DNA of 64,000 nucleotides from Gemmobacter lanyuensis (GTDB lineage: Bacteria; Pseudomonadota; Alphaproteobacteria; Rhodobacterales; Rhodobacteraceae), in the NCBI RefSeq assembly GCF_014652355.1, contig NZ_BMYQ01000001.1:742180-806179 (forward strand), read 5' to 3'. Position 1 is the stretch's first letter, and each line of letters begins with the position of its first letter. Below the pieces are notes generated by a model that did not search any database, was not told the DNA's origin, and saw only the letters and a list, made by a program, of their open reading frames with translations. The position numbers and the translations under genes were made by a program. Shown one piece after another: positions 35,084 through 58,787 of the stretch.

Positions 35084-35148
35084 CATTTTCTGTCTGAAAA
35101 TATCCTCGGGGGGATTGGCCGCAGGCCAAGGGGGGCAGACAGCCCCCC
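35084..35148 (-). repeat. GAGGATATTT two-hairpin repeat, copy A
   Basis: Read on the minus strand, it starts 6 bp after the aminotransferase stop with GGGGGG-CTGTCTG-CCCCCC. A second hairpin GGCC-TGC-GGCC follows, then CCCCCCGAGGATATTT and the tail CAGACAGAAAATG. It closely matches copy B, including the tail. Confidence 0.85.
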
Positions 35149-35154
35149 GCGCCC

Positions 35155-36378
35155 TCACTCGACCCGCGCCACGCCACCGGGGGCGCTCAGATCCCCCTGA
35201 AACACAGCCGAAACTTCGGCGCGGATGATGCGGGCAATCAGCGCGCAATCCTCAAGGCTGAAGGTCAGCGGCAGGCGCATGTCCAAAATCCCGTACAGCA
35301 CCCGGTCGGTCGCGGGCATCGGCTCTGACGGCACATAGCCCCAGCTGTCATAGCGGCTGGTAAAGGCCACCGGCTCCGGCGCGCCGAACCACTTCAGCTC
35401 CACCCCGCGCGCGGCGCAGCGCGCGATCACGGCGCGGATTGCGTCATCCTGCCAATCCAGCAGCAGGAACTGGTAAGAAGAGGCCACGAAGCCCTCAGCC
35501 TCGGGCCGCGCCACACGGGTCAACCCCGGCACCCCGGCCAGCCCCGCGTCCAGAACGCGGTAGCGGTCATTCCAGCGCGCGCATTGGCGGGCCAGATCGC
35601 GCAGCTGCGGTCGCAGGATCGCCGCGCGCAGATTATCCATCCGGCCCGAGATATTGGGCGTCTGCAGGCGCAGATCGGCAAAGGCCTCGGGCGGGGGCGC
35701 CGCGCGGTGGCGGTCATAGAGCATATAGCTCCCCGACAGCAAAATCGCCCGCGCCATGACCTCGGCATCGTCCGAGATCAGCAGCCCACCCTCGCCGGAA
35801 TTGGCGTGTTTGTAGGTCTGGGTGGAAAAGCACCCCACCGTGCCCCAACGCCCTGTCAGCCGCCCGGCCCAGCCCGCCCCCATCGTATGGGCGCAATCCT
35901 CGATCACCGTGATGCCCCGCGCGGCACAAAGCGCCATAAGCGCGTCCATATCGCAGATATGCCCGCGCATGTGGCTCAGCATCAGCACCCGCGCCTGATC
36001 GGCCTTGGCGGCCAGATCCTCAAGGTCGATCACCAGCCCCTCGGTCACACCGACAAACACAGGCACCGCCCCGACCGAGGCAATCGCCCCCGGCACCGGC
36101 GCCAGGGTGAAGGCATTGGTCAGCACCCTGTCACCCGGCCCCACCCCCACCGCACGCAGCGCACAGGCCAGCGCATAGCCGCCAGAGGCGACGGCAAGGC
36201 AATAAGACGCCCCGGTCTGGGCGGCAAATTCCTCTTCCAGCAGGGCGGCTTCCGCCACCTCGCCCGGGATGGTGTTGTAACGGTGCAGCCGCCCCGATTG
36301 CAGGACGCGCAGCGCCGCGGCGATGGCCTCCTCGGGTATCGGTTCCTGCTGGGTGAATGATCCGGTGAAACGTTCCAT
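35155..36378 (-). CDS. DegT/DnrJ/EryC1-family aminotransferase
   Basis: A 407-residue PLP enzyme with SGRLHRYN near the start, VASGGYALACALRA, the IEDCAHTMGA motif and the Schiff-base Lys in TQTYKHANSGEGG near residue 205. Such enzymes transaminate keto-sugars, but the family also includes other substrates. No sugar-nucleotide pathway genes adjoin it, so the substrate is open. The ATG at 36378 gives the natural N-terminus MERFTGSF; a longer open frame upstream reads into the divergent region. Repeat copy A directly follows the stop. Confidence 0.88.
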   Translation of the reverse strand: MERFTGSFTQQEPIPEEAIAAALRVLQSGRLHRYNTIPGEVAEAALLEEEFAAQTGASYCLAVASGGYALACALRAVGVGPGDRVLTNAFTLAPVPGAIASVGAVPVFVGVTEGLVIDLEDLAAKADQARVLMLSHMRGHICDMDALMALCAARGITVIEDCAHTMGAGWAGRLTGRWGTVGCFSTQTYKHANSGEGGLLISDDAEVMARAILLSGSYMLYDRHRAAPPPEAFADLRLQTPNISGRMDNLRAAILRPQLRDLARQCARWNDRYRVLDAGLAGVPGLTRVARPEAEGFVASSYQFLLLDWQDDAIRAVIARCAARGVELKWFGAPEPVAFTSRYDSWGYVPSEPMPATDRVLYGILDMRLPLTFSLEDCALIARIIRAEVSAVFQGDLSAPGGVARVE

Positions 36379-36523
36379 GCCCCTCACATGCGCCGCGTCA
36401 TGGCGTCTGTCAACGCGGCGTTTCCGGGCGAAGATTCTGGCGCGCCGCAAAGGGGAAGCGTCAGGGCTTGGATTCCCCCGCGCCGCATGGCAAGGGGGCG
36501 ACCTGCCCTGCCGGAGCCCCTTG

Positions 36524-36874
36524 ATGCGCCTTCTTCCCGCCTGCCTGATCGTTACCGCCTTTCTGGGTGCGGCGGCGCCCGCCCGTGCCGATCTGGTGCT
36601 GACCGGGGTCGATGCACAGCGTCTGCATTGCGCGGCGATGCTCATGGTGATTTCGGACCGTCTGGCACAGGCAGGCTTCATCCCGGCCGAGGCGCGCGCG
36701 CAGGCCCAGGTGGTCGCCGTCGCGCTTCTGTCGGAACTGCCGGGCAGCGAACGCGACCGCGTCCGAGCCCTTGTGCAGCGGGCCGACAAGCTGATGCGGA
36801 CGCGCACCATGCCCGCACTTCTGGATGAATTCGAAGCGACGGTCGACTGGTGCGCGGCGCAGGTTCCGGAATAA
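36524..36874 (+). CDS. Small secreted protein of unknown function
   Basis: A 116-residue product with a signal peptide (LLPACLIVTAFLGAAAPARA) and a mature helical domain with two Cys (LHCAAML and VDWCAAQV) likely joined by a disulfide. No family is recognised. A GGAG sequence about 7 nt upstream supports the ATG at 36524. It converges with gph, whose stop is 1 bp away. Confidence 0.7.
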   Translation: MRLLPACLIVTAFLGAAAPARADLVLTGVDAQRLHCAAMLMVISDRLAQAGFIPAEARAQAQVVAVALLSELPGSERDRVRALVQRADKLMRTRTMPALLDEFEATVDWCAAQVPE

Positions 36875-36875
36875 C

Positions 36876-37538
36876 TCAGCCCCGCAGGCGTTCGACCAGC
36901 CCGGGCAAGTCGGCATAGTCATCCAGCATTGCCGTCGGCGCCAGACGCGCGATCCCTGCGCCCTCGGGGCCGAAGCTGACAAGGATGCAGGGCACCCCCG
37001 CGGCCTCGGCCGTGCGGCGGTCGGTTTCGGTATCCCCCACCAGAAGCGATCGGCGCGGATCGCCCCCCGCCCGCAGAACAGAGGCGACATAGGGCGCCAC
37101 ATCGGGCTTGCGCGTGGGCAGCGTATCCGCCCCGATCAGACTGTCAAACAGCCCCCGCACCCCAAGCCGGGTCAGCAGAAGTTCGGCCAGACCTTCGGGC
37201 TTGTTGGTGCAGATCGCCGTGCGATAGCCGCCTTCACGCAGCGCCAAGACCGCCTCGACCGCGCCGGGGTAAAGCCGGGTATGGGTGTCGATCCCCTCGG
37301 CATAAGCAGCCAGCAGGGGCGCATATTGGGATCCGACCAGAGCGTCATCCTCGATCCCCAGCCGGGAAAACCCCAGCCGCAGCATCGCCCGCCCGCCGTG
37401 AAAGGCCGTCAGCGCATCTTGGCCCGGATCCAGCAGGTCGCCATGGCCAAGCCCGCGGAAACAGGCATTGGCCGCCGCGATCAGATCGGCCGAGGTATCG
37501 GCCAGCGTGCCGTCCAGATCGAAAACCACGGTGAACAT
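36876..37538 (-). CDS. gph: Phosphoglycolate phosphatase (HAD family)
   Basis: A 220-residue HAD hydrolase with motif I FDLDGTLADT, motif II CTNKPE and motif IV VGDTETDRRTA, with an alpha-helical cap between motifs I and II. This is the Gph layout; it would clear 2-phosphoglycolate made by oxygenation or DNA repair. Other HAD phosphatase roles are possible. It is divergent from glmU with 108 bp between. Confidence 0.9.
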   Translation of the reverse strand: MFTVVFDLDGTLADTSADLIAAANACFRGLGHGDLLDPGQDALTAFHGGRAMLRLGFSRLGIEDDALVGSQYAPLLAAYAEGIDTHTRLYPGAVEAVLALREGGYRTAICTNKPEGLAELLLTRLGVRGLFDSLIGADTLPTRKPDVAPYVASVLRAGGDPRRSLLVGDTETDRRTAEAAGVPCILVSFGPEGAGIARLAPTAMLDDYADLPGLVERLRG

Positions 37539-37646
37539 GGCGTGTCCTTTTTGGTTGAAACCTGCCGAAAGATTGTGTGATGGGGCATGTCTTGCGCCCC
37601 AAGGCCATGGGGTTAAAACGGGCGCAACGCCAAGGAAAGGGGTGTC

Positions 37647-38999
37647 ATGTCGGTTTCTCTTGTCATTCTCGCCGCGGGCCAGGGCACGCGGATGAATTCC
37701 GACCTGCCGAAGGTGCTGCACAAGGTTGCCGGGGCGCCGCTTCTGCACCATGCCATGCAGGCCGGGGCCGCCCTTGCGCCCGAAAAGGTGATCGTGGTGG
37801 CCGGTCACGGCGCCGAGGCCGTGTCCAAGGCCGCCCGCGCCTGGGATGACAGCTGCGAGATCGTGGTGCAGGACGAACAGCTCGGCACCGCCCATGCCGT
37901 CGCGCAGGCCGCCCCCCTGCTGACCGAGGCGCGCGGCGATTGCGTCGTGCTTTACGGCGACACCCCCTTCATCCGACCCGAAACGCTGGAAGCCATGCGC
38001 GAGGCCCGCGCCCGCCATGCCGTCGTCGTGCTGGGATTCGAGGCCGCCGATCCGGGCCGTTATGGCCGCCTGATCACCAATGGCGATCAGTTGGAGCGCA
38101 TCGTCGAATTCAAGGACGCGACCGAGGCCGAACGCGCCATCACGCTTTGCAATTCGGGGGTGATCTGCGCGGATGTGCAGACGCTGTTCAGCCTGATTTC
38201 GGCCGTGGGCAATGACAATGCGGCGGGCGAATATTACCTGACCGACATCGTGGCGCTGGCCCGCGCGCGCGGCCTTTCGGCCGGTGTCGTCACCTGCTCC
38301 GAGGCCGAGACGATGGGCGTCAATACCCGCGCCCAGCTGGCCGAGGCCGAGGCCGCCTTCCAGACCCGCGCCCGCGCCGATGCGCTGGAAAACGGTGTCA
38401 CCCTCACCGCGCCCGAAACCGTGTTCCTGTCGCTGGATACCGTGATCGGGCGGGATGCGATCATCGGGCCGAATGTGGTTTTCGGCCCCGGCGTGACCAT
38501 CGAAAGCGGCGCGGAAATCAAGGCTTTCTGCCATCTGGAAGGCTGCCATGTGTCGCGCGGCGCCGATGTCGGCCCCTTTGCCCGCCTGCGCCCCGGCGCG
38601 GAACTGGCGGAATTCGTCCATGTCGGCAATTTCGTCGAGATCAAGAATGCCATTCTGGACGAGGGCGTGAAGGTCGGCCACCTGACCTATCTGGGCGATG
38701 CTGATGTGGGCGAACATACCAATATCGGCGCGGGCACCGTCACCTGCAATTATGACGGGGTGAACAAGCACCGCACGCGCATCGGCAAACGGGCCTTCAT
38801 CGGGTCGGATACCATGCTGGTCGCGCCGGTCAGCGTGGGCGACGGCGCGATGACGGGGTCAGGCTCGGTCATCACCGAGGATGTGCCGGCCGAGGCGGTC
38901 GCGCTTGCGCGGGCAAAGCAGGTGGTGAAGCCGGGTCTCGCGCCGCGGCTCTTTGAGATGTATCGGGCCATCAAGGCCAAGCGCCAGAAAGGCGAATGA
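37647..38999 (+). CDS. glmU: Bifunctional UDP-N-acetylglucosamine pyrophosphorylase / GlcN-1-P acetyltransferase
   Basis: A 450-residue enzyme that acetylates glucosamine-1-phosphate and then forms UDP-GlcNAc, the precursor of peptidoglycan and LPS. The N-terminal uridyltransferase has LAAGQGTRMNSDLPKVLH and YGDTPFI. The C-terminal left-handed beta-helix has hexapeptide repeats (VIGRDAIIGPNVVFGPGVTI) and TVTCNYDGVNKHRT. A purine-rich AAGGAAAGGGG precedes the ATG. glmS starts 1 bp after the stop, so the two steps are co-expressed. Confidence 0.97.
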   Translation: MSVSLVILAAGQGTRMNSDLPKVLHKVAGAPLLHHAMQAGAALAPEKVIVVAGHGAEAVSKAARAWDDSCEIVVQDEQLGTAHAVAQAAPLLTEARGDCVVLYGDTPFIRPETLEAMREARARHAVVVLGFEAADPGRYGRLITNGDQLERIVEFKDATEAERAITLCNSGVICADVQTLFSLISAVGNDNAAGEYYLTDIVALARARGLSAGVVTCSEAETMGVNTRAQLAEAEAAFQTRARADALENGVTLTAPETVFLSLDTVIGRDAIIGPNVVFGPGVTIESGAEIKAFCHLEGCHVSRGADVGPFARLRPGAELAEFVHVGNFVEIKNAILDEGVKVGHLTYLGDADVGEHTNIGAGTVTCNYDGVNKHRTRIGKRAFIGSDTMLVAPVSVGDGAMTGSGSVITEDVPAEAVALARAKQVVKPGLAPRLFEMYRAIKAKRQKGE

Positions 39000-39000
39000 C

Positions 39001-40815
39001 ATGTGCGGGATTGTTGGGGTTCTGGGCAACCATCAGGTGGCGCCGCTGCTGGTCGAGGCGCTGAAGCGTCTGGAATATCGCGGCTATGACAGCGCGGGGA
39101 TCGCGACGGTCAATGACGGCCGTCTGGATCGCCGCCGCGCGGTGGGCAAGCTGCAAAACCTGTCGGACCTGCTGGTGCATGAACCGCTCGCCGGGCGGGC
39201 CGGGATCGGCCATACCCGCTGGGCCACCCATGGCGCGGCGACCGTGGCCAATGCCCACCCCCACCGCGCCGGCGCCGTGGCCGTTGTCCATAACGGCATC
39301 ATCGAGAATTTCCGCGAACTGCGGGCCGAGCTGACCGCCGCGGGCTACAGCTTTGAATCCGAAACCGATACCGAAACCATCGCCCTGCTGATGCGCCATG
39401 CGCTGGCCGATGGCAAAACCCCGCAAGAGGCCGCGGCCGAAATCCTGCCGCGGCTGCACGGCGCTTTCGCGCTGTGCTTCCTCTTTGAAGGCGAAGATGA
39501 TCTGATGATCTGCGCCCGCAAGGGCAGCCCGCTTGCCATTGGCCATGGCGAGGGCGAGATGTTCGTGGGATCGGATGCCATCGCCCTTGCCCCCATGACC
39601 GACCGCGTCACCTATCTTGAGGAAGGCGACTGGGCCGTCATCACCCGCAAGGGGGCCGAGATTTTCGACGCCGAGAACCGCCGCGCCAATCGCGCGATGA
39701 CGCGCATCCAGGTCGATGCCACGCGGATCGAAAAGGCGGGCTACAAGCATTTCATGGCCAAGGAAATCGCCGAACAGCCGGTGGTCTTGGCCGATGCGCT
39801 GAAACATTACACCACGGGCGGCGCCATCACCCTGCCTGAGGGGCTTGATTTCGCGGGCGTGGACCGGCTGACCATGGTGGCCTGCGGCACGGCCTCTTAC
39901 GCCTGCCATGTGGCGAAATACTGGTTTGAAAGCCTCGCCGGGCTACCCTGCGACATCGATATCGCGTCGGAATTCCGCTACCGCGAACCGCCACTGTCGG
40001 AAAAGGGCTGGGCGCTGTTCGTCAGCCAGTCGGGTGAGACCGCCGATACGCTGGCCGCGCTGCGCTATGCGCGTGACAAAGTGGCACGGATCCTGTCGAT
40101 CGTGAATGTGACCACCTCGTCCATCGCGCGGGAAAGCGACCTGGCGCTGCCGATCCTTGCCGGGGTCGAGGTGGGCGTGGCCTCGACCAAGGCCTTTACC
40201 TGCCAGTTGGCGGTTCTGGCGCTGCTCGCGCTCAAGGCGGGGTTTGACCGTGGTCGGCTGACGGCGGATCAGGTCGCCGACCATCTGGCGACCTTCCGTC
40301 TGCTGCCGGGGCTGATGAACCATGCCATCGGCCTTGCGCCCGAGATCGAGAAGCTGGCCGAACAGCTGGCCGAGGCACAGGACGTGCTGTTCCTGGGCCG
40401 GGGTGCGATGTTCCCGCTGGCGCTGGAGGGGGCGCTGAAGCTCAAGGAAATCAGCTATATCCACGCCGAGGGCTATGCCTCGGGCGAACTGAAGCACGGC
40501 CCCATCGCGCTGATCGACAACCGCGTGCCGGTGGTGGTGCTGGCCCCGCGTGACCATTTGTTCGAAAAGACCGTCTCGAACATGCAAGAGGTGATGGCGC
40601 GGCACGGGAAGGTGCTGCTCATGTCCGACGCGGCGGGTGTCGCCGAGGCAGGGGCGGGCTGCTGGAAAACGCTGACCTTGCCGCAAGTGCCCGATCTGCT
40701 GGCGCCGATCCTCTATGCGATCCCGGCGCAATTGCTGGCCTATCACACGGCCATTGCGAAGGGGACGGATGTGGACCAGCCGCGCAACCTTGCGAAATCC
40801 GTGACGGTGGAGTGA
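39001..40815 (+). CDS. glmS: Glutamine-fructose-6-phosphate aminotransferase (isomerizing)
   Basis: A 604-residue enzyme making glucosamine-6-phosphate from fructose-6-phosphate and glutamine. The N-terminal Cys nucleophile is in MCGIVGVLGN. The glutaminase motifs are GIGHTRWATHG and HNGIIEN. Two SIS domains follow (VACGTASYACHVAKYW, VASTKAFTCQ), and the C-terminus is LAKSVTVE. The length is standard. No glmS-type riboswitch is expected, since the gene follows glmU by 1 bp. Confidence 0.98.
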   Translation: MCGIVGVLGNHQVAPLLVEALKRLEYRGYDSAGIATVNDGRLDRRRAVGKLQNLSDLLVHEPLAGRAGIGHTRWATHGAATVANAHPHRAGAVAVVHNGIIENFRELRAELTAAGYSFESETDTETIALLMRHALADGKTPQEAAAEILPRLHGAFALCFLFEGEDDLMICARKGSPLAIGHGEGEMFVGSDAIALAPMTDRVTYLEEGDWAVITRKGAEIFDAENRRANRAMTRIQVDATRIEKAGYKHFMAKEIAEQPVVLADALKHYTTGGAITLPEGLDFAGVDRLTMVACGTASYACHVAKYWFESLAGLPCDIDIASEFRYREPPLSEKGWALFVSQSGETADTLAALRYARDKVARILSIVNVTTSSIARESDLALPILAGVEVGVASTKAFTCQLAVLALLALKAGFDRGRLTADQVADHLATFRLLPGLMNHAIGLAPEIEKLAEQLAEAQDVLFLGRGAMFPLALEGALKLKEISYIHAEGYASGELKHGPIALIDNRVPVVVLAPRDHLFEKTVSNMQEVMARHGKVLLMSDAAGVAEAGAGCWKTLTLPQVPDLLAPILYAIPAQLLAYHTAIAKGTDVDQPRNLAKSVTVE

Positions 40816-40816
40816 G

Positions 40817-41377
40817 ATGGCCAAGCAGTTCGCGGGCTTTGGGGCCGATCATCAGGCCTTCATCGCCGAACAGCCGGTCTATTTCGTGGCAACCAGCGCC
40901 CCCGACGCGCGCATCAACCTGTCGCCCAAGGGGATGGACAGCCTCCGCGTGATCGGCCCCAACCGGCTGATCTGGCTGAATGTCACCGGATCCGGGAACG
41001 AAACCGCGGCACATCTGCCGCGCGATCCGCGCATGACGGTGATGTGGTGCAGCTTCGGCACCCGCCCGCTGATCCTGCGGGCCTATGGCAGGGCGCGGGT
41101 GATCCATCGGGGCGATGGCGATTGGGCGGATCTGGCAGCGCAGCTGCCCGCCCTGCCCGGCGCGCGGCAGATCTTTGATCTGGCGGTGGATCTGGTGCAG
41201 ACCTCTTGCGGTTTCGCCGTGCCGCAGATGGAATCGGCACGTGAACGGCCGGTGCTGCGGACATGGGCAGAACAGAAAGGCCCCGAAGGCATTGCCGCCT
41301 ATTGGGACGAACGCAACCGGGTGTCGATCGACGGTCTGGCGACCGGGATCGAGGCCAATCTTGAGGGCGAGGCATGA
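40817..41377 (+). CDS. Pyridoxamine-5'-phosphate-oxidase-like flavin protein
   Basis: A 186-residue split-barrel protein. The first half reads FIAEQPVYFVATSAPDARINLSPKG-like (shown here in parts: YFVATSAP, INLSPKGMD) and NRLIWLNVTGSGNETAAHL, which fit an FMN-binding PNPOx-like fold. It does not look like true PdxH. The reaction is unknown. It begins 1 bp after the glmS stop and overlaps the next gene by 4 bp, so it is part of the glmU-glmS transcript. Confidence 0.85.
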   Translation: MAKQFAGFGADHQAFIAEQPVYFVATSAPDARINLSPKGMDSLRVIGPNRLIWLNVTGSGNETAAHLPRDPRMTVMWCSFGTRPLILRAYGRARVIHRGDGDWADLAAQLPALPGARQIFDLAVDLVQTSCGFAVPQMESARERPVLRTWAEQKGPEGIAAYWDERNRVSIDGLATGIEANLEGEA

Positions 41378-42147
41378 ACGGGACCGAAGGCGAGACCCCC
41401 CAGAGCGAGGATTGGAGCGACTGGGTCGAGGACGAGACCCCGCCCCCCGCCCCGGCACCGGACACGGCCGAGGCCGCGCTAGACCAGATCGCCGCCGCGG
41501 GCGACCCCGCCAAGGCGCCCGAGATGGCCGCCTATCACAAGGCCGAGCGGCGCTATCTGGGCACCCCAGTGCCCGCGATTGATGCGCTGACGCGCGACTG
41601 GCGTCTGGGTCTGGACCTTGAAGGGCGGCTCAAGCTTGCCGCCGGATTGTGGGACAGCAATGTACATGAGGGCCGCGTCGCCGCAGCCAAGCTGCTGACC
41701 CAGGCGCGCATCCGCCCCGATGACGGCGTCTGGGCGCTGATACAGGCTTGGGTGCCCGAGTTCGACGCCTGGGCCATCGCCGATCATGTGAGCAAGGCCG
41801 GAGAAAAGCGCATCATGGCCGATCTGGGGCGGCTGGATGCGGTGGAAGGCTGGATCGCAGCGCCGCTGATGTGGCAACGCCGGGCGGCGCTGGTGATGAC
41901 GCTGCCGCTGACCAAGCTGAATTTCCCCAAGCCGGCCGAGCTTGCCGCTCGGGAGCGGGTGCTGGGCTGGGCCGCGGCCATGGTCGGGGACCGGGACTGG
42001 TTCATCCAGAAGGCCATCGGCTGGTGGCTGCGCGAATTGTCAAAGCATGATCCCGTGCGGGTTCAGGCCTTTTTGGCCGAGCATGGGCCGGGATTGAAGG
42101 CCTTTGCCCGCAAGGAGGCCGCGCAATATCTGCCCAAGGCAGAGTGA
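41374..42147 (+). CDS. DNA alkylation repair-like (AlkD, HEAT-repeat) protein
   Basis: A 257-residue all-helical protein. After an acidic N-terminal 50 residues, the rest fits the AlkD/PF08713 HEAT-like superhelix: LWDSNVHEGRVAAAKLL, FDAWAIADHVSKAG, WRRRAALV-like MWQRRAALVM, and DWFIQKAIGWWLRELSKHDP near the end. AlkD-type enzymes excise alkylated bases, but many relatives are untested. The start overlaps the PNPOx-like gene by 4 bp. Repeat copy B follows the stop after 10 bp. Confidence 0.85.
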   Translation: MNGTEGETPQSEDWSDWVEDETPPPAPAPDTAEAALDQIAAAGDPAKAPEMAAYHKAERRYLGTPVPAIDALTRDWRLGLDLEGRLKLAAGLWDSNVHEGRVAAAKLLTQARIRPDDGVWALIQAWVPEFDAWAIADHVSKAGEKRIMADLGRLDAVEGWIAAPLMWQRRAALVMTLPLTKLNFPKPAELAARERVLGWAAAMVGDRDWFIQKAIGWWLRELSKHDPVRVQAFLAEHGPGLKAFARKEAAQYLPKAE

Positions 42148-42157
42148 GCGGAAGGGA

Positions 42158-42226
42158 GGGGGCTGTCTGCCCCCTCTGGGCCTTCGGCCCATTCACCCCC
42201 GAGGATATTTCCGGACAGAAAATGAG
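42158..42226 (+). repeat. GAGGATATTT two-hairpin repeat, copy B
   Basis: GGGGG-CTGTCTG-CCCCC, then GGGCC-TTC-GGCCC, then CCCCCGAGGATATTT and the tail CCGGACAGAAAATGAG. It begins 10 bp after the stop of the AlkD-like gene in the same orientation. Its tail matches that of copy A (GACAGAAAATG). Confidence 0.85.
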
Positions 42227-42301
42227 AGGCGTGGCGCCGGGGGGCGCAGGGGCGGCGCAATGCGCCTTGTCGCTGCGGGCGGGGGGGCGTAAAATCTGCC
42301 C

Positions 42302-44759: not shown

Positions 44760-44845
44760 CCCTTACCACCCGTTGCGCGCAGGCCTGCCGCGCGTGACCG
44801 CATCGTCGCAAAAAAACCGGGCGAATTCAACCGGAACCGGGATGA

Positions 44846-45481: not shown

Positions 45482-45497
45482 GGGATGTCCCTTTGTC

Positions 45498-46649: not shown

Positions 46650-47846
46650 ATGCGCGAGACAACCGATATCCTGATTTCCGGCGGCGGGGTTGCGGGCCTT
46701 GCCGCCGCCTGCGCCTTCGGTGCCGCCGGGTTTCGGGTGATCTGCGTCGAGCCGAACCCGCCCGTGACCAAGGGCGAGGCCGAGGGGTCAGACCTGCGGA
46801 CCACGGCCTTCCTGCACCCGTCGATCCCGGTGCTGGACCGCGCGGGGCTGTGGGCGCGGCTTGCCCCCCATGCGGCGGCGCTGCAGGTCATGCGGATTGT
46901 CGATGCGGGGGGCGTGGTGCCGGAACCCCGCGTCATCAAGGATTTCGACGCCGCCGATCTGTCGGACAAGCCGTTTGGCTGGAACCTGCCCAACTGGCTG
47001 TTGCGCCGGGAAATGCTGGCCCGCATGGCCGAGCTGGAGACCGTGACCTTCCTGCCGGGCTTGGCAACCGCCGCCGTCACAACGCGGGAAAGCGAGGCGC
47101 TGGTGACGCTGTCCGACGGGCGGCGCTTTGCGGCGCGGCTGCTGATCGGGGCGGATGGGCGCGGCAGCACGGTGCGGCAGGCGCTGGGGATCGGGGTCAG
47201 GACGCTGCGCTATGGGCAGAAGGCGCTGGCCTTTGCGGTGCGCCATACCATCCCACATGGCAATATCTCGACCGAGATCCACAGATCGGGGGGGCCGTTC
47301 ACCTTTGTGCCCCTGCCCGATCAGCACGGTCAGCCCTGTTCGGCAGTGGTCTGGATGGACCATGCCGCCGAGATCGACCGCCGCATGGCCCTGCCGCCCG
47401 AGGCCTTCCGCGAGGAGATGATGACCCGGTCCTGCGGGCTTTTGGGCGAGCTTACGCAGATCTCGCGCCTGACGGCCTGGCCGATCATTGCCCAGATCGC
47501 GGCGCAGATGTCGGGCGAACGCACCGCGTTGATGGCCGAGGCCGCCCATGTCATGCCGCCCATCGGCGCGCAGGGGTTGAACATGAGCCTTGCGGACTTG
47601 ACCGTGCTGCTCGATCTGGCCGAAAGCCATCGCGCCGATCCGGGAACTGCCGCGGTGCTGGACGCCTATCACCGCGCGCGGCATCTGGATGTGCAGACGC
47701 GGGTCATGGGGATTGACCTGCTGAACCGCGCCTCGCAGATCGGGGCGCAGCCCTTGCGCGATCTGCGGGCGGCGACCCTGGATGCGATGTATTCGATTGC
47801 CCCGGTACGCAAGACGCTGATGCGGGCGGGGATCGGGGTCAGGTAA
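46650..47846 (+). CDS. UbiH/UbiF/COQ6-family FAD-dependent hydroxylase
   Basis: A 398-residue flavoprotein monooxygenase. The FAD motif ISGGGVAGLAAACAFGAAGF is at about residues 9-28, the DG motif LLIGADGRGSTVRQ near residue 165, and the GD-type motif AHVMPPIGAQGLNMSLAD near residue 300. This is the family that hydroxylates the ubiquinone ring. Which ring position it acts on cannot be told, so no symbol is given. Repeat copy C follows directly after the TAA. Confidence 0.92.
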   Translation: MRETTDILISGGGVAGLAAACAFGAAGFRVICVEPNPPVTKGEAEGSDLRTTAFLHPSIPVLDRAGLWARLAPHAAALQVMRIVDAGGVVPEPRVIKDFDAADLSDKPFGWNLPNWLLRREMLARMAELETVTFLPGLATAAVTTRESEALVTLSDGRRFAARLLIGADGRGSTVRQALGIGVRTLRYGQKALAFAVRHTIPHGNISTEIHRSGGPFTFVPLPDQHGQPCSAVVWMDHAAEIDRRMALPPEAFREEMMTRSCGLLGELTQISRLTAWPIIAQIAAQMSGERTALMAEAAHVMPPIGAQGLNMSLADLTVLLDLAESHRADPGTAAVLDAYHRARHLDVQTRVMGIDLLNRASQIGAQPLRDLRAATLDAMYSIAPVRKTLMRAGIGVR

Positions 47847-47906
47847 GGGGGCTTTGCCCCCTCGGCCTGCGGCCTCACCCCCAGGATATTTTTGCCAAGA
47901 TGAAAG
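47847..47906 (+). repeat. GAGGATATTT two-hairpin repeat, copy C
   Basis: GGGGG-CTTTG-CCCCC, then GGCC-TGC-GGCC, then CCCCCAGGATATTT and the tail TTGCCAAGATGAAAG. It starts at the base after the UbiH-family stop codon. The constant tail has lost one G and the outer tail differs from copies A and B. Confidence 0.8.
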
Positions 47907-47921
47907 GGCGCCGTCGGGATA

Positions 47922-48844: not shown

Positions 48845-48860
48845 TTCACACTTACGCTTT

Positions 48861-48882: not shown

Positions 48883-48887
48883 TTTGA

Positions 48888-49988
<1,101 letters not shown>

Positions 49989-50029
49989 TCGGGCGGCGGG
50001 CACTGCGCCCGCCCTTCCCACCCTAGACG

Positions 50030-50061
50030 AAGGCCGGGGTGTGCTGCACCCCGGCCTTTTT
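50030..50061. terminator. Intrinsic terminator after ilvC
   Basis: AAGGCCGGGGTG-TGCTG-CACCCCGGCCTTTTT is a perfect 10-bp GC stem with flanking A and T pairs and a T-tract. It lies 41 bp after ilvC and just before the end of the convergent GT8 gene; the short AA on the other side makes it mostly a plus-strand terminator. Confidence 0.9.
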
Positions 50062-50065
50062 GCTG

Positions 50066-51669: not shown

Positions 51670-51671
51670 CG

Positions 51672-53015
51672 TCAGACCACCGCCTCGATGGCGGCGACCA
51701 TGCCGTCCACCTCGGCCCGCAGCAGCGCCTCATCCTCACATTCCGCCATCACGCGGATCAGGGGTTCGGTGCCGGATTTGCGGATCAGCACGCGGCCCTT
51801 GCCCTGAAGGCGGGCTTCGGCCTCGGCGATGCGGGCCTTGACCGTGCCTTCGGCCAGCGGCTGCTTGTCGGCACCGTAGCGCACATTCCGCAGCATTTGC
51901 GGCACGGTCTCAAAGCTTTGCACCAGTTCGGAGGCGGGCTTTTCGGTGCGCGCCATCTCGGCCAGGAATTGCAGCCCCGCGATCAGGCCATCGCCCGTAG
52001 TGGCGTAATCGGTCATCACGATATGGCCCGATTGTTCCCCGCCCAGGTTATAGCCGTTGCGGCGCATTGCCTCGACGACATAGCGGTCACCCACGGCAGT
52101 GCGTTCCAGACGCAGGCCACGCGCGGTCAGGAATTTCTCAAGCCCGAGGTTGGACATCACCGTCGCAACCAGCGTGCCGCCTTTCAGCCGCCCCTCCTCC
52201 GCCCAACGGGCCGCCATCAGCGCCATGATCTGATCGCCGTCCGCCACACGGCCATTCTGATCAAGGATCATCACCCGATCCGCATCGCCATCAAGACTGA
52301 TGCCGACATGGGCGCCATGAGCCACCACCGCTTCGGCGGCGGTCTGGGTATGGGTTGATCCGCAACGGTCATTGATATTGGTGCCATTGGGCGCAACACC
52401 CACCGGGATCACCTCGGCGCCCAGTTCCCACAGCACCTCAGGCGCGGCGCGATAGGCGGCGCCATTGGCGCAATCGATCACCACCTTCAGCCCGTCCAGC
52501 CGCAGTCCCGCCGGGAAGGTCGTCTTGACAAATTCCTGATAGCGGCCGCGGCCATCCTCGATCCGCTTGGCGCGGCCGATGTTCTGGGGTTGGGCAGGCA
52601 GGATCTCGCCTTCCAGAATGGCCTCGATCTCGGCCTCGGCCTCATCCGACAGTTTGAACCCGTCGGGGCCAAAGAACTTGATGCCATTGTCATGATGCGG
52701 ATTGTGACTGGCCGAGATCATCACCCCCAGATCGGCACGCATCGACCGGGTGAGAAAGCCCACCGCCGGCGTCGGCACTGGCCCCAGCAGCAGCACATTC
52801 ATCCCGGTCGAGGTCAGACCCGCCGTCAGCGCATTTTCCAGCATATAGCCCGAAAGCCGCGTATCCTTGCCGATGACAACCCGATGCGCCGAACTGCCGT
52901 CGCGGCGGAAGAACCGCCCCGCAGCCGCCCCAAGGCGCAGCGCCATTTCCGCGGTCATCGGATAGGTATTGGCGCGCCCGCGCACGCCATCGGTGCCAAA
53001 AAGCTTGCGGCTCAT
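51672..53015 (-). CDS. glmM: Phosphoglucosamine mutase
   Basis: A 447-residue enzyme that converts glucosamine-6-phosphate to glucosamine-1-phosphate, between GlmS and GlmU. It has [11 protein letters not shown] at the start, the phosphoserine loop [18 protein letters not shown] near residue 100, the metal site SLDGDADRV and the C-terminal phosphate site [12 protein letters not shown]. The ATG at 53015 overlaps the folP stop by 4 bp; folP-glmM order is common in bacteria. Confidence 0.97.
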
Positions 53016-54025
53016 GCCAAATCCCCCACGGTGACAGACCGCCAGAGCGCGAGCGCCTGACGGGTTTCCCAAACATCATGCACGCGCAAGACCTGCGCGC
53101 CCTGCGCCACCCCGGCCAGCGCCACCGCGACCGATCCGGGCGCGCGCCGCGCGGCCTCGGCCTCACCGCCGATGGTGCCGATGAATTTCTTGCGGCTGAC
53201 GCCCAGAAGAATCGCGCAGCCCAGCCCGTGAAAAAGCGACAGGCCCCGGATCAGCGTCAGGTTATGGTCCAGCGTCTTGCCGAACCCGATGCCCGGATCA
53301 ACCATGATGCAGTGACGCGGGATGCCCGCTGCCTCGGCCTCGGCCACTTTCTCGGCCAGAAAATCGTAAACGTCGAGCAGCACATCCTCATATTGCGGAT
53401 CATGCTGCATGGTCTGCGGCGTGCCTTGGGCATGCATCAGACAGATCGGCGCCTGTGCGGCGGCGGTCACATCCTTCAGCGTCGTATCCCAGGTAAAAGC
53501 CGAAACATCATTCACAAAGCTCGCCCCCGCCTTCAGGGCAGCCTCGGCCACCGCGCCCTTGCGGGTATCGATAGAGATTGCCGTGTCGATCCCGCCTTCA
53601 CGCAAAGCGGCAATAACGGGGGCGGTGCGCTGAATTTCCTCGACCACCGGCACTTCGGCCGCACCGGGGCGCGTGCTTTCGCCGCCGATGTCGATGATCT
53701 CGGCACCGGCACCGGCCATGACCTGCCCCTGATGCACGGCAGCCTCGGGCGCAAGGAAGCGACCGCCGTCGGAAAAGCTGTCGGGCGTCACGTTGAGGAT
53801 GCCCATCAGCCGCGGCCGGTCCATAGACAGCCCTGCAAAATCGGCGCGGGGCGCGGTCAGCCGGTCGCGCATGTCGGTGGGCAGATCGGCGGCCGCAATC
53901 AGCCGGGGGCTTTGGCCACGTTCCAACACCTCGACCCGGTCGAACCAGAGCCAGCCGCCCGCAAGCGGCAAGGCCCCTGCGGGGCGTGCGGTGTCACTCA
54001 TCGGGATGGGACGGTAATAGATCAT
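53012..54025 (-). CDS. folP: Dihydropteroate synthase
   Basis: A 337-residue TIM-barrel enzyme joining pterin pyrophosphate with p-aminobenzoate in folate synthesis. Motifs are [48 protein letters not shown] and [11 protein letters not shown]. About 65 residues precede the first motif, a longer N-terminus than in E. coli (282 aa). The ATG at 54025 (MIYYRPIP) fits that extension; a start at 54001 is possible. It lies 43 bp after folB and is coupled to glmM. Confidence 0.96.
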
Positions 54026-54068
54026 GCCTTCGATTAGGCCCAACCGCCCTTGCAGGCAAGGCCCGCTG

Positions 54069-54977
54069 TCAGGCGCGTTCGACCGTCACGCGGCTTCCTG
54101 CCGGGACTGTTACATCGCCGTGAACCACCATCGCCTCGGCCGCCGTCAGTTCGGCCAACCAAAGCGCCAGCGCCACCGGTTCGCGCGAATGGGGGCCATC
54201 GACCGCATCCAGCACCAGTTTCGACGGCGCCCAGACGATCATCTGGCCGTTCTTCATGGCCCAGTCAATTTCCGTCCGCGTGCCGACCACGACACACCGG
54301 TCATCCCGCGCGGCCAGGGTCCAGGCGTTCTGTTCAATGGCAAGAAGGTCGATCCGGCGCTGGGTCGGTTTGTGGCCCGTCACCGGACGCGGAAAATCGG
54401 GCAGACCCACGGTCAGGATCACCGGGAGGCCGCGCGCCTGAAGCCGGTCCAGCCGCGCCGAAAGATCAGGCGCCGCAATCGCGGCATTGTCGAAGAACAC
54501 GACCAGCGGATGCAGCGCCGCCATGACGCCATCGCTGCCCACGGCACGCAAGGGCGCCTCGGCCCGGGTCCGCACGATCTCGACCCCAAGCGCACCGGGA
54601 CCGCGATCCAGCTTTTCGATGCGGATGAAGACGCGCATGGCCTGCGGCTCTTGCAAGATGCGCTCGGCCACTTTTTCTGCCAGCGTCTCCAGCAGGTTCA
54701 ACCGTTCGGCGGCCAGTTCGGCGGCAATCGCCTCAGTGATCCGGTCATAGGACAGGATCAGATCGACATCATCGCCCAGCTGCGCCGGATGGGGGCGCAC
54801 CTCGACCACGATGTTGAAGCGCAGGCGCTGCGTCTTGCCGCGTTCCTGCTGGAAGGCCCCGATGTCGGCCTCCACAATATGATCACGCAGCGAGATGCGG
54901 TCACGCGGGTCGGCCGAGGCGGACGCGACAGAGCGTTCCTCGGGATGCGCAAAGGCAAGGCGGATATCAGTCGTCAT
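54069..54977 (-). CDS. folB: Dihydroneopterin aldolase with unknown C-terminal domain
   Basis: A 302-residue protein. Residues about 25-135 are a FolB domain (ISLRDHIVEADIGAFQQERG, LSYDRITEAI, LNLLETLAEKVAERIL, with the catalytic-region Lys retained). FolB normally ends near 120 residues. Here about 165 further residues form a domain I do not recognise (VVFFDNAAIAAPDLSARLD, VILTVGLPDFPRP, GHKPTQRRIDLL, VVVGTRTEIDWAM). No folK is nearby. It is the first gene of the folB-folP-glmM-sulfotransferase-GT8 run. Confidence 0.88.
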   Translation of the reverse strand: MTTDIRLAFAHPEERSVASASADPRDRISLRDHIVEADIGAFQQERGKTQRLRFNIVVEVRPHPAQLGDDVDLILSYDRITEAIAAELAAERLNLLETLAEKVAERILQEPQAMRVFIRIEKLDRGPGALGVEIVRTRAEAPLRAVGSDGVMAALHPLVVFFDNAAIAAPDLSARLDRLQARGLPVILTVGLPDFPRPVTGHKPTQRRIDLLAIEQNAWTLAARDDRCVVVGTRTEIDWAMKNGQMIVWAPSKLVLDAVDGPHSREPVALALWLAELTAAEAMVVHGDVTVPAGSRVTVERA

Positions 54978-55072
54978 ATTCGCCCTCCGGCGCGGTCAGA
55001 ATGGCGGGACACTACCCGCCAGCCCAGCCTATGCCCTGCCCGCCCGCGGCAGGCAAGATGATCTGCGCGACA

Positions 55073-55813
55073 TCAGTGACGATAAAAAAGGTGCGCGCCG
55101 ATGGCAGCCGTCCGATCGAAGCGATGCGACCAATCGGGACGAACACCGACCGTATGGAAATAAAGCGCCCCATTCGTAAGGCCGCGGGGGGCACCATCCA
55201 TCATCAGGCGGGCAATCTTGCCTGCCGTTTCCCAAGCGCCACGATCATGCACGGCATCTGATTTGCCATCGCAAGTGAACGAGAACTGACACCCGCCATT
55301 GCCGCTTTGCCGCACCACGCCGCAGATGCTGCGCGGATAGGCCGGGTTGTCGGTGCGGTTCAGAACGACCTCGGCCACCGCGAACTGGCCCTTGAGGGAT
55401 TCACCGCGCGCCTCATGGTAGACCGCCGTCGCAAGGCATTGCCATTCCGCATCCCCGGATGCGACCGGCAGCGCCGCCAGATAGGCGGGATCATAGCTGA
55501 TCAGGGCGGGCGAAGATTTCACGGCCGTTTTGGACGGCTTAGCCACAACGGCCTTTTCAGGTTTCACCTCGGCCGCCGCGGGTTTTGCCACGACCTTGAC
55601 CTGCGGCATGGCCACACCATCGGCCAAGGCCGCAAGCCGCGTGGGGGCAACTCTGTCCAAGGCAGATTTTTCCAACCCGAGGAGAGAGGACATCCGACCG
55701 TCAATACTGACGGACGGGTCGTTCGACTGGCTCACCGTGACATCGGCGAAGGCCGCTCCATTCAGGACCAACGCGCCCAGAAGGGCCGCCGTCCAGCAAA
55801 GTCGCAAGCGCAT
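55073..55813 (-). CDS. SleB-type cell wall hydrolase
   Basis: A 246-residue protein with a signal peptide (LCWTAALLGALVLNGAAFA), a Lys/Ala-rich linker (about 70-100) and a C-terminal Hydrolase_2 (SleB) domain. The likely catalytic Glu is in AVYHEARGES near residue 135, followed by AVAEVVLNRTDNPAYPRSIC and HDRGAWETAGKIA. Such enzymes cleave the peptidoglycan glycan strand. It is a single gene; the region upstream (to 56043) is AT-rich and should carry its promoter. Confidence 0.9.
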   Translation of the reverse strand: MRLRLCWTAALLGALVLNGAAFADVTVSQSNDPSVSIDGRMSSLLGLEKSALDRVAPTRLAALADGVAMPQVKVVAKPAAAEVKPEKAVVAKPSKTAVKSSPALISYDPAYLAALPVASGDAEWQCLATAVYHEARGESLKGQFAVAEVVLNRTDNPAYPRSICGVVRQSGNGGCQFSFTCDGKSDAVHDRGAWETAGKIARLMMDGAPRGLTNGALYFHTVGVRPDWSHRFDRTAAIGAHLFYRH

Positions 55814-55995
55814 TTACGTGTGTTCCCGGTCTTGTTCCAGCGCCGCCAGCCGGGGATCTTGACCCTACCGTCAGGCAACAGGGGCGGCACCTAGACCAGA
55901 AAACCGCGGGGTGTAAAGTCTTGATGCAAAAGCGATACATGAATTGCTCGCTTTTTGCGCGAATTCTTGCCGATATGGCCTTTGAAAAGATCAAG

Positions 55996-56026
55996 GGGAA
56001 AATGCGCCAAATCCCGCATTTTTCCC
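55996..56026 (-). terminator. Probable terminator of the ppdK-like gene
   Basis: GGGAAAATGCG and CGCATTTTTCCC are near-perfect inverted arms around 8 nt. It lies 18 bp after the ppdK stop in the minus direction, followed by TTGATCTTTTC. The T-tract is interrupted, so strength is uncertain. Confidence 0.55.
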
Positions 56027-56043
56027 TGTTATTGCAAAGATTT

Positions 56044-58584
56044 TCACGCCTTCGGATCGGTCAGCGCAAGGTGTGCGGCGGCAAGACGGGCCTGCGGCAC
56101 GCGATAGGGTGAACAGGACACATAATCAAAGCCCGCACGACGACAAAATGCGATCGATTCGGGGTTTCCGCCATGTTCCCCGCAGATCGACAGGGTAAGA
56201 TTCGCCCGCGTCCGCCGCCCCCGTTCTGCCCCAATCAGCAAGAGCTCTCCAACCCCATCGACGTCGAGAATATGGAAGGGATCTTCGGGGAAAACGCCCT
56301 CTTGGACATAGGTGTTCATGAAGCGCCCGGCGTCATCGCGCGACAGGCCATAGGTCATCTGCGTCAGGTCATTCGTCCCGAAAGACAGGAAGGCCGCATG
56401 CTGGGCAATCTCGCCCGCGCGCAGCGCCGCCCGCGGGGTTTCCACCATGACCCCCAGGCGGTAATCAAAGCTGACGCCGGTCTTGGTCCGCACCGCCGCC
56501 GCCACCGCATCGATACGGGTCTTGACCAGCTCCACCTCGCGCCGGGCCGAAACCAGCGGGATCATGATTTCAGGCACGACAGGTTCGCCCGCGCGGACAG
56601 TTTCGACCGTCGCCTCGAAAATCGCCCGCGCCTGCATGTCGTAGATTTCGGGCAGCACAACGCCCAGCCGCACCCCCCGCATCCCGAGCATCGGGTTGAA
56701 TTCCGACAGCGCCTCGGCCCGTCGCGTGACCTCGGAAAGCGGGCGATCCAGTGCTTCGGCCAGCTCGCGCAGACCCTCGCGCGAATGGGGCAGGAATTCA
56801 TGCAGCGGCGGGTCGAACAGACGGATGCAAACAGGCAAACCCTTCATGATTTCAAAGAGTTGCCCAAAGTCCGCCCGCTGCATCGGCAAAAGCCTTGCCA
56901 GGGCGGCGGCCCGGTCTTTGGGCGTGTCGGCAAAGATCATCTCGCGCATGGCGACCAGACGATCCTCGTCAAAGAACATATGTTCGGTACGGCACAGGCC
57001 AATGCCCTGCGCCCCGAAATCGCGCGCCGTCTGCGCATCAGACGGCGTGTCGGCATTGGCCCGGATACCAATGTCGCGCAGGTCATCCGCCCAGGCCAGC
57101 AGCTGACGGAAGGCATCGTCCTGCGCCGGGGCCAACATCTCGGCCGCCCCCACCAACGCCTCTCCGGTGGTGCCGTCGATGGTGATGACATCGCCCTCGC
57201 GGAACTCGCGCCCGTCCTTGGCCGTCAGACGCTTGTCACGCGTGTCAAGCCGGATGTCCGAGGCCCCGACGATACAGGGCAAGCCGAGGCCCCGCCCGAT
57301 CACCGCCGCATGGCTGGTCATGCCACCACGCTCCGTCAGTACCGCCACGGCGGAATGCATGCCGCGAATATCCTCGGGCGCAGTTTCGCGCCGCACAAGG
57401 ATGCAGGGCTCACCCCGCGCCGCACTCGCCTGTGCCGCCTGCGAGCTGAAAACGATCCGCCCCGTCGCCGCCCCAGGGCTTGCGGCAATCCCCCGGGCAA
57501 AGACATCCCGCGGCCCGCGCGGATCGACCTGCGGATGCAAAAGCTCCGACAGCGCGCGCGGCTCCACCCGCAGCACGGCTTCAGAGGGCGAAATCACCCC
57601 ATCCTTGGCCAGCGCCACCGCAATCTTCAGCCCCGCCCGGGCCGAACGCTGCACCTTGACCGCATCAAGCACCGAAAGCTGCCCATCCTCGATGGTAAAC
57701 TCGATCTGCATCTCCTCGCGCAGACGGCGACGACACACCTCGCCATGGCGCAGCAAATCGGCAAAGAGATCGGGTGCCAGTTCCTCAAGCGATGGACCCC
57801 GCTTGTCACGCGTCAGGTAAATCGCCTCCCCCCGCGTCAGCGCGTCACGCCCCTGGCTCTGGCCCAGATAGCGCCCCTTGACCTGGGCATCCCCCGTGAC
57901 CGGATCGACAAACTGGATCACGCCCGAACCGGAAATCCCCTGCCCGATCCCCTGCGCCATCTGCTGGACAACCAGCCCGAGCCCCGCCTCGGCAGGCGCC
58001 CCCTTGGCCTGCCGCAACAGCCGCGCCGTCGTCCCCTCCCAGGCCCGGGCCATCGAGCGCAAGACATCTGCAAGCTGCCGCGCCGGGTCTTCGGGAAAAG
58101 GCTCGTCCATCTCGATCTGATAGGTCCGCAGCGCATCGCGCAGCGCCTGGGCCGAAGGCTCCACCCCTTCGAACATGTCAGGATCAAGCCGCGCCACATG
58201 CACCGCATAGCCCTGCACGAACCGCAGATAGAGCGCATCCGCCGCCGCCTGCCCATGCCGCTGCGCCAGACGATCATGCCGCGCCATGTTGAAGCCGATA
58301 TTCAGAATGGTTGCAGGCCCACCCCAATCCGGGTTTTCTGGTGACGGCCGCACCGAAATCAGCGGGTCCGCCCCGAAATGGGCAAGAATGGCGCGACAAT
58401 CAACCATCTGCCCCGAGGCAATGGCCCGCACGACATACGCGGGCAAGGCGACCGTCTCGGGCACCGGCAACTCCAGCCGGATCAGGCGCTGCAAACATTT
58501 TGCGCGCCACCCATGCTGCTCACGCGTGATCTGCGCGCTTGGCGTGATGACGGAAAAATCAGTAAGAAGCTCGGTTTTCTGCAC
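56044..58584 (-). CDS. ppdK: Pyruvate phosphate dikinase-like PEP-utilising enzyme
   Basis: An 846-residue three-domain enzyme. The N-terminal ATP-grasp part has VSVRSG-like ISVRPSPENPDWGGPATILN. The swivelling phosphohistidine domain has LTERGGMTSHAAVIGRGLGL near residue 420. The C-terminal PEP/pyruvate TIM barrel has GIGLCRTEHMFF, FNPMLGMRGVRLG, VMVETPRAA and LSFGTNDLTQMTYG. It should interconvert pyruvate and PEP. The N-terminus lacks the usual GGKGANL motif; HGWRAKCLQRLIRLELPVP stands there instead. The GTG start at 58584 is favoured because a longer frame reads through repeat copy D. Confidence 0.88.
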   Translation of the reverse strand: MQKTELLTDFSVITPSAQITREQHGWRAKCLQRLIRLELPVPETVALPAYVVRAIASGQMVDCRAILAHFGADPLISVRPSPENPDWGGPATILNIGFNMARHDRLAQRHGQAAADALYLRFVQGYAVHVARLDPDMFEGVEPSAQALRDALRTYQIEMDEPFPEDPARQLADVLRSMARAWEGTTARLLRQAKGAPAEAGLGLVVQQMAQGIGQGISGSGVIQFVDPVTGDAQVKGRYLGQSQGRDALTRGEAIYLTRDKRGPSLEELAPDLFADLLRHGEVCRRRLREEMQIEFTIEDGQLSVLDAVKVQRSARAGLKIAVALAKDGVISPSEAVLRVEPRALSELLHPQVDPRGPRDVFARGIAASPGAATGRIVFSSQAAQASAARGEPCILVRRETAPEDIRGMHSAVAVLTERGGMTSHAAVIGRGLGLPCIVGASDIRLDTRDKRLTAKDGREFREGDVITIDGTTGEALVGAAEMLAPAQDDAFRQLLAWADDLRDIGIRANADTPSDAQTARDFGAQGIGLCRTEHMFFDEDRLVAMREMIFADTPKDRAAALARLLPMQRADFGQLFEIMKGLPVCIRLFDPPLHEFLPHSREGLRELAEALDRPLSEVTRRAEALSEFNPMLGMRGVRLGVVLPEIYDMQARAIFEATVETVRAGEPVVPEIMIPLVSARREVELVKTRIDAVAAAVRTKTGVSFDYRLGVMVETPRAALRAGEIAQHAAFLSFGTNDLTQMTYGLSRDDAGRFMNTYVQEGVFPEDPFHILDVDGVGELLLIGAERGRRTRANLTLSICGEHGGNPESIAFCRRAGFDYVSCSPYRVPQARLAAAHLALTDPKA

Positions 58585-58649
58585 TGCGGCACCCTTCTGT
58601 TGACCGCAGCATAAACAGATCGAACCTTCGCGCAAGAACCTGCATGAAA

Positions 58650-58713
58650 AGGGGGGCTGTCTGCCCCCCTCGGCCTTCGGCCTCACCCCCCGAGGATATT
58701 TCAACAACGGGAA
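58650..58713 (+). repeat. GAGGATATTT two-hairpin repeat, copy D
   Basis: GGGGGG-CTGTCTG-CCCCCC, GGCC-TTC-GGCC, CCCCCCGAGGATATTT and the tail CAACAACGGGAA. It lies in the gap upstream of the ppdK-like gene and faces copy E. It is the only copy not directly after a stop codon. Confidence 0.85.
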
Positions 58714-58736
58714 GAGGCAGTGCGATTTCCTTCAAA

Positions 58737-58787
58737 TTCCCGTTGGACAAATATCCTCGGGGGTCCGGGGGCAGACAGCCCCCGGCC
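58737..58787 (-). repeat. GAGGATATTT repeat, copy E (single hairpin)
   Basis: On the minus strand it starts 5 bp after the glyS stop: CCGGGGG-CTGTCTG-CCCCCGG, then CCCCCGAGGATATTT and the tail GTCCAACGGGAA. The middle GGCC hairpin is missing. Its tail matches copy D, giving an inverted pair with D. Confidence 0.85.

Follow-up and report, generated by a model that had tools for sequence, protein, structure and literature searches.

REP (repetitive extragenic palindromic) sequences and REPINs are short extragenic hairpins that come as inverted pairs and have genome-specific sequences. Potential triplex repeats form another group, accounts of which for bacteria go back to the 1990s to 2000 (PMC4666352). 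The present text concerns a repeat of the Rhodobacterales, five copies of which lie in a window of 64,000 nucleotides (nt) from Gemmobacter lanyuensis (contig NZ_BMYQ01000001.1, positions 742,180 to 806,179). It is tentatively read as a dispersed gene-end element of two modules: a hairpin with a third, C-rich run, and behind it a two-part word, GGATATTT-N3-tail, the second part of which differs between genomes. No account of this element was found in the open-access PubMed Central (PMC) literature, searched by sequence word and topic. Closest in kind are the intrastrand triplex repeats BoxC, PIT and TM_ECO of E. coli and other proteobacteria, as far as the treatment of them in PMC4666352 goes.

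According to the sections of that study dealing with them, BoxC, PIT and TM_ECO are GC-rich repeats of three runs with a purine-motif code, intergenic, present in tens of copies, partly arranged as inverted pairs and very unevenly distributed between relatives; all of this is shared by the Rhodobacterales element. The pyrimidine motif is given there as T.A-T and C.G-C with a parallel third strand, and the purine motif as A(T).A-T and G.G-C with an antiparallel one; triplexes of the purine motif are stated not to form in RNA. The BoxC/PIT-type code of three runs on one strand (A(T).A-T, G.G-C) is found in the sequences studied here. TM_ECO is assigned to class II; its runs are 9 nt long, its loops measure 3-6 and 3 nt, and it has neither strand bias nor a set distance to open reading frames (ORFs), whereas the antisense strand of the Rhodobacterales element is class I, with runs of mostly 4-6 nt and often a second hairpin between them. 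Unlike TM_ECO, the element also has a loop that pairs with its flank, the GGATATTT-N3-tail module and a polarity to gene ends. By eye, the five window copies depart from the published TM_ECO consensus, CCCTCNCCC-N3-6-GGGNGAGGG-N3-GGGNGAGGG, in their shorter runs and other run order. The limits given for the ITxF search (stems of 6-15 nt, loops of 1-6 nt; PMC4666352) do not accommodate arms of 5-6 nt and, in copies A to D, 16-21 nt from C-arm to third run; an ITxF search should therefore miss the window copies. Nothing in those sections ascribes to BoxC and PIT dialects of a tail, a loop that pairs with its flank or a polarity to gene ends.

The trait of a short extragenic hairpin, as it stands in the REP definition of PMC12306157, is likewise shared. 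The element differs from REP sequences and their REP-associated tyrosine transposases (RAYT) by the lack of a RAYT match in the genome, by strong stop-codon polarity and by stems that vary beside a constant flanking word. With intrinsic (Rho-independent) terminators it has in common a GC-rich hairpin near the stop codon, an AT-rich stretch behind it and inverted pairs at convergent genes. It is set apart from them by the third run, the paired loop, the dialects and the conserved word, of about 21 nt, that comes after the fold; at the hairpin foot, where a terminator has its T-tract, it has none, and the second C-run and GGATATTT come next.

The two-part word, the loop and the third run

The genome containing the window (4.03 Mb; G000) holds 118 copies of GGATATTT-N3-tail, 102 of them exact, when the spacer is fixed at 3 nt. 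Three tail words coexist in it (38 + 59 + 21 copies): CCAAGATGAA (38, 35 exact), GACAGAAAATG (59, 46 exact) and CAACGGGAA (21, all exact; one match for the reversed control). With spacers of 1-6 nt allowed, 55 matches were obtained; the spacer measured 3 nt in 53 of them and 2 nt in another (L029), and the last match was unrelated. The three spacer bases are free in sequence and T-rich in part of the copies, and the information per base drops to background soon past the tail. At the other end, no fixed 5' boundary is visible in the element. A G-run hairpin can be parsed in 112 of the 118 copies. The original prediction, an earlier reading of the window by a model, had proposed a search of the genome: CCCCGAGGATATTT gave 79 matches at up to one mismatch and its reversed control none; two of these matches, those in L053 and L062, lack a hairpin and look like chance. 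That reading had also taken a single GAGGATATTT to be constant, which has to be amended, as the GA part changes together with the loop of the hairpin, and what stays constant is the two-part word with genome-specific tails. Its idea of a protein- or RNase-recognised site survives in part. A sequence-reading factor is plausible because the word is near-invariant within the genome, and an RNase site is less probable, the letters favouring a three-stranded fold, rather of DNA. Copy density in the genome is uneven, with 56 of the 118 copies on contig C1 (1,039 kb) and four on contig C2 (402 kb), which may represent a separate replicon or domain.

When loci are placed side by side, with duplicate contexts removed, the loop of hairpin 1 and the base or bases preceding GGATATTT covary. 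The strict set consisted of fetched loci anchored on GGATATTT and left out five-base loops with pairable end bases. In its five-base loops, position 3 pairs with the last base before GGATATTT in 143 of 146 cases and position 4 with the preceding base equally often (143/146); both pairs are present in 140 of 146 (shuffle mean 70.8, maximum 85 in 10,000). In three-base loops, the centre pairs with the base before GGATATTT in 100 of 103 (shuffle mean 61.3, maximum 75). The pairs occur as T-A, C-G, G-C and A-T. A looser parse that includes a GCC short form finds the rule obeyed in 298 of 304 elements, and a separate parse restricted to G-run hairpins in 229 of 248. A pairing of loop CTGTC with tail GACAG was rejected, because tails and loops combine freely (CTGTCTG with CAACGGGAA, CTTTG with GACAG). 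Relatives often carry another type of hairpin, in which GCCTCCGGC-GG or GCCTTCGGC-GA precedes GGATATTT (L105, L117, L120, L121 and similar loci); it follows the loop rule in most cases, and some elements of this type form tight inverted pairs.

The third run, which is the second C-run, matches the G-arm in parallel. The G-run parse started from 337 elements and left out 89, including the GCC short form, in which no G-run hairpin could be parsed. Of the 248 that remained, 202 have a third run matched over at least 4, and G-run and second C-run are equally long in 175 of 217 (shuffle mean 75.9, maximum 97). The register of this run was assessed by searching 390 genomes for stems with an internal A. 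For GGAGGG arms, 29 matches were spread over 18 of the 390 genomes, and 28 of the matches were kept (23 distinct sequences); the one in G066 (GGTGGG, without the second C-run) was judged chance and removed before the third-strand count. GGGAGG arms gave 31 elements in 12 of the 390 genomes (20 distinct sequences). Over these 59 elements, the A of the arm is faced by T in 46 cases and by A in the other 13, and never by C or G. When loop length sets the register, the third run is parallel in 27 of 28 GGAGGG rows and in all 21 typed GGGAGG rows (all 20 distinct sequences); in total, 58 of the 59 A-containing elements are parallel. At three more loci (L195, L251, L274), GGGGGA arms face CCCCCT. 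Ordinary duplication yields repeats that are direct or inverted rather than complementary in parallel, and a three-strand or parallel-strand fold would therefore be the natural reading. The parallel register of the stems that contain an A rules out a terminator/antiterminator switch, in which the G-arm would pair antiparallel with the second C-run.

On the complementary strand, the T and A that face A-T turn into A and T; all 59 facing bases then fall under the purine code, and 46 of the 59 under the pyrimidine code. The letters thus match what a purine-motif intrastrand triplex of the complementary DNA strand requires, and we infer that such a triplex may form in cells. The mismatches in the stems bear on whether DNA or RNA would fold. 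Second-hairpin stems are Watson-Crick in 644 of 663 pairs, with six G-T against ten A-C; there is no G-T excess and therefore no sign of selection at the RNA level. For hairpin 1, 228 of 380 elements are perfect, 31 have one mismatch and 121 are unparsed, the single mismatches being 23 G-G (mostly misread GCGCTCGCGC stems), four A-C and two G-T, a tally that says little on this choice. Counted over all hairpins, mismatches come to 55 G-T and 34 A-C in the own set and to 126 and 90 in the others, figures that are swamped by chance hairpins.

An element of RNA would offer another account of the same letters: a pyrimidine-motif triplex pseudoknot (C+.G-C, U.A-U) at the mRNA 3' end, which would terminate at AUAUUU or protect the end. 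It would suit the sense polarity and the tight distance to the stop codon described below, the predicted hairpins of the five window copies (-20 to -33 kcal/mol) and the AU-rich stretch directly past the fold; in addition, PMC4666352 presents pyrimidine-type intrastrand triplexes as possible in RNA and purine-motif ones as not. However, A at 13 of the 59 facing bases breaks the pyrimidine code and fits the purine code, and the second-hairpin stems lack the G-T excess. Pyrimidine-motif triplexes of a C-rich strand favour acid pH (PMC4666352), the conserved tail past the plausible 3' end is left unexplained, and the RNA fold of copy C is no better than its own shuffles, 69 of 200 being equally good. 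This explanation is therefore considered improbable. A known RNA family was dismissed, as Rfam gave no match in the window at gathering score. Facing-base code and absent G-T preference would together favour DNA over RNA, while the polarity with transcription leaves some room for RNA.

Placement at gene ends and tail dialects

Positions were counted against our own gene and start predictions, for which the window served to train the gene finder. The count omits five of the 118 copies, four inside predicted ORFs and one without an upstream gene. Of the 113 remaining copies, 88 lie past a same-strand stop codon, as intrinsic terminators do (42 co-directional, 46 convergent; binomial p 2e-9). Placement relative to stop codons, which the original prediction had named as its own test, is thus non-random. 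From the stop to GGATATTT there are, in the median, about 50 nt. A facing full word is found within 200 nt of 32 of the 118 copies, and in 28 of these 32 the tail class is shared; counted as about 16 pairs, 14 of them alike, this gives p 8e-5, an approximate value because a few partners lie outside the 118. A facing tail alone within 200 nt accompanies a further eight of the 118 copies, and a facing tail was seen in 24 of 589 control windows.

Tails vary between close relatives. The combined tail pattern matches nine of 11 same-genus genomes (G000 included), the two without a match being G001 and G004. Another dialect, GGATATTT-N3-AACAGATGA, has 149 copies in G010, 118 in G004, 55 in G007, 23 in G009, 11 in G003 and nine in G006, and none in G000, G001, G002, G005 and G008; single genomes can mix dialects. 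Further tails in relatives are GCCAGAAGAA, GAAAGAGGAA, GAAAGATGAA and GCAAGAGGAA. In 390 genomes drawn from the order, the combined pattern matches 171, in 80 of 139 genera, a count to be read with the reversed control's matches in two genomes, with the many counts of 1-3 that may be chance and with the other dialects that escape it. Among the matches listed, carriers include Paracoccus, Tabrizicola, Phaeovulum, Gemmobacter and Cypionkella. As the tail differs between genomes like a dialect, it would most simply be read by a co-evolving trans factor.

Dialects also recall DNA uptake sequences (DUS). As described for the Neisseriaceae in the relevant part of PMC3630211, DUS are short words that are near-invariant in each genome, with dialects and inverted pairs linked to terminators, all of which the element shares. 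The tails would accordingly mark kin DNA, and copies would settle in terminators as inverted pairs. Such a signal is very improbable here. DUS run to hundreds or thousands of copies per genome (thousands in that account), against 118 copies of three words in 4.03 Mb; nearly every copy in G000 has the G-run hairpin as a partner; and there is no known reader. Facing tails without the core, counted only within 200 nt of copies, come to the eight cases given above.

Orthologous places were compared at one locus, the 3' flank of glyS, which is readable in eight of ten congeners. An element oriented like copy D is present in five of the eight (G003, G004, G005, G006, G008), with differing hairpins and three different tails. 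The place past glyS is thus retained while hairpins and tail changed. Of the other three, G007 carries its element at a greater distance downstream, G002 shows an unrelated hairpin, and in G001 the downstream sequence is a different one. Copy E is not present in the five congeners that keep the D-oriented element.

These patterns have to be weighed against a mobile repeat. A non-autonomous REP- or BoxC-like repeat could spread if its folded single strand were cut and copied by a putative enzyme reading GGATATTT-N3-tail; new dialects would be new waves of spread, and gene ends tolerated or targeted places. Tails that are homogeneous within a genome and abruptly different between congeners are consistent with this, as are the matching tails of facing pairs, the missing copy E, one element inside an annotated putA and the copies inside predicted ORFs. 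Folded single-strand DNA with loop-flank pairing also resembles the ends used by single-strand transposases. On the other hand, Y1_Tnp (RAYT, PF01797) has no match in G000 and nine of ten congeners, and mobilisation by RAYT is ruled out on the G000 result. The lack of a visible 5' boundary and the strong sense polarity also speak against a mobile repeat, no clean empty site has been demonstrated, and the retention of the glyS place with changed hairpins and tail is unlike the vertical inheritance of an inert insertion. A mobile repeat is consequently regarded as rather unlikely. G003 is the only one of the 11 genomes with any Y1_Tnp matches; its contig C2 has five (RAYT-like), and no element is listed on that contig.

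Elements were also met on plasmids and on viral contigs. L350, on a Paracoccus liaowanqingii plasmid, is a full element with the tail CCAAGATGAAG, antisense within the annotated putA reading frame, and is the only one of four plasmid elements to carry a tail from the named sets. In L348, L349 and L351 (plasmids of Paracoccus aminophilus, Cereibacter sphaeroides and Phaeobacter), the core is followed by tails outside those sets, perhaps further dialects. The word is also present on seven IMG/VR contigs, four of which (L352, L354, L355, L356) are 13.6-14.0 kb long and have the element past similar gene ends; from their size, these four may represent gene transfer agent clusters.

The five copies in the window

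All five copies, at four loci, were found where the original prediction had placed them, and its three classes of outer tail and the position of A, B, C and E shortly past same-strand stops hold as well; copy D, which points backwards, is excepted. D and E form an inverted pair with a common tail class. The word CCCCCGAGGATATTT at up to three mismatches has six matches in the window against 1.31 expected, and none of 100 shuffles reached six (maximum five). The sixth match (57366-57380) lies within the ORF of a PEP-utilising enzyme (56044-58707) and looks like chance. The RNase J gene noted earlier is indeed encoded in the window (13042-14718, minus strand), adjoining a DEAD-box helicase gene (11314-12981, plus strand), at least 20 kb from every copy, and nothing tying the element to RNase J was found in this analysis.

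Coordinates and parts of the element copies, in window positions
Copy	Span	Strand	Relation to genes	G-arm	Loop	C-arm	Between C-arm and third run	Third run	Loop-pairing bases	GGATATTT	N3	Tail
A	35084-35148	minus	6 nt past stop of ORF 35155-36810 minus (PF01041, DegT family)	35143-35148	CTGTCTG 35136-35142	35130-35135	second hairpin inside 35114-35129	C6 35108-35113	GA 35106-35107	35098-35105	35095-35097	GACAGAAAATG 35084-35094
B	42158-42224	plus	10 nt past stop of ORF 41374-42147 (PF08713)	42158-42162	CTGTCTG 42163-42169	42170-42174	second hairpin GGGCC/GGCCC	C5 42196-42200	GA 42201-42202	42203-42210	42211-42213	GACAGAAAATG 42214-42224
C	47847-47906	plus	begins immediately 3' of stop of ORF 46650-47846 (PF01494)	47847-47851	CTTTG 47852-47856	47857-47861		C5 47878-47882	A 47883	47884-47891	47892-47894	CCAAGATGAAAG 47895-47906
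D	58651-58713	plus	antisense to neighbours, between glyS and next gene	58651-58656	CTGTCTG 58657-58663	58664-58669		C6 58686-58691	GA 58692-58693	58694-58701	58702-58704	CAACGGGAA 58705-58713
E	58737-58783	minus	8 nt past stop of glyS (ORF 58792-61089 minus, PF02092)	58779-58783	CTGTCTG 58772-58778	58767-58771	GGA, no second hairpin	C5 58759-58763	GA 58757-58758	58749-58756	58746-58748	CAACGGGAA 58737-58745

A possible boundary at gene ends

The observations can be combined into a mechanism. Module 1 would be hairpin 1 (G-arm with C-arm) joined by the second C-run, with the next 1-3 bases pairing with the loop centre; on the complementary strand, it would form an intrastrand DNA triplex of the purine motif, made of G.G-C and of A-T faced by A or T. 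The second module, GGATATTT-N3 with its 10-nt tail, would be read by a putative sequence-specific trans factor that co-evolves with it. The fold and the bound factor together may stop or slow RNA polymerase past the stop codon, thereby marking and insulating gene ends, and inverted pairs may act in both directions. A gene-end boundary element of this kind, with a factor that reads the tail, is the reading we tentatively prefer, as possible rather than probable. It is favoured because the copies are polar, lie near stops and are paired between convergent ends, and because one is kept at an orthologous place.

Several points weigh against it. On the side of function, no candidate can be named for the putative trans factor, and the congener G001 has neither tested word set. 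Of the 113 copies, 25 do not lie past a same-strand stop, seven of them between divergent genes and 18 antisense (ten of the 18 have a core ending at most 14 nt from the opposite gene's end, as D-type halves would), and there are the four of 118 copies inside predicted ORFs. Only one of the four annotated plasmid contexts is past a same-strand gene end, the others being between two opposite-strand genes, in a gap with opposite-strand genes and inside putA. As to the fold, polarity with transcription would equally suit RNA, and copy C does not fold better than its shuffles. In a loose register, all 59 A-containing elements fit the parallel arrangement, yet 19 of the 28 GGAGGG rows fit the antiparallel one too; under the loop-length rule, G239, which is without a loop-pairing base, takes the antiparallel position. 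The loop shuffles ignore relatedness, 75 of the 146 five-base loops being the single combination TGTCT/CGA, and among distinct loop/flank combinations 21 of 27 (five-base) and 15 of 18 (three-base) obey the rule. The short form GCC-TYC-GGC-RG obeys it without a third strand and looks too tight for this fold in cis; an alternative stem, CCTY/RRGG, is a candidate within it. Finally, BoxC and PIT showed no terminator activity and no triplex footprint in vivo, and the triplex-repeat study reports for such repeats no function as promoter or terminator and no stable triplex in vivo (PMC4666352).

The wider proposition is that gene ends of the Rhodobacterales are marked by a working DNA triplex, with selection keeping the three-strand code and the loop-flank pairing, and with a species-specific reader of the tail. 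As a whole, this is doubtful on present sequence evidence. If true, it would be evolutionary proof of an intrastrand triplex acting in living bacteria. The triplet code co-varies across genera, which is the expected trace of selection on a third strand, and the natural compensatory changes are ready to be copied into a test. The tail dialects point to a reader that may be fished with its own tail. These tags would thus offer a direct test of whether triple-stranded DNA has a role in living cells.

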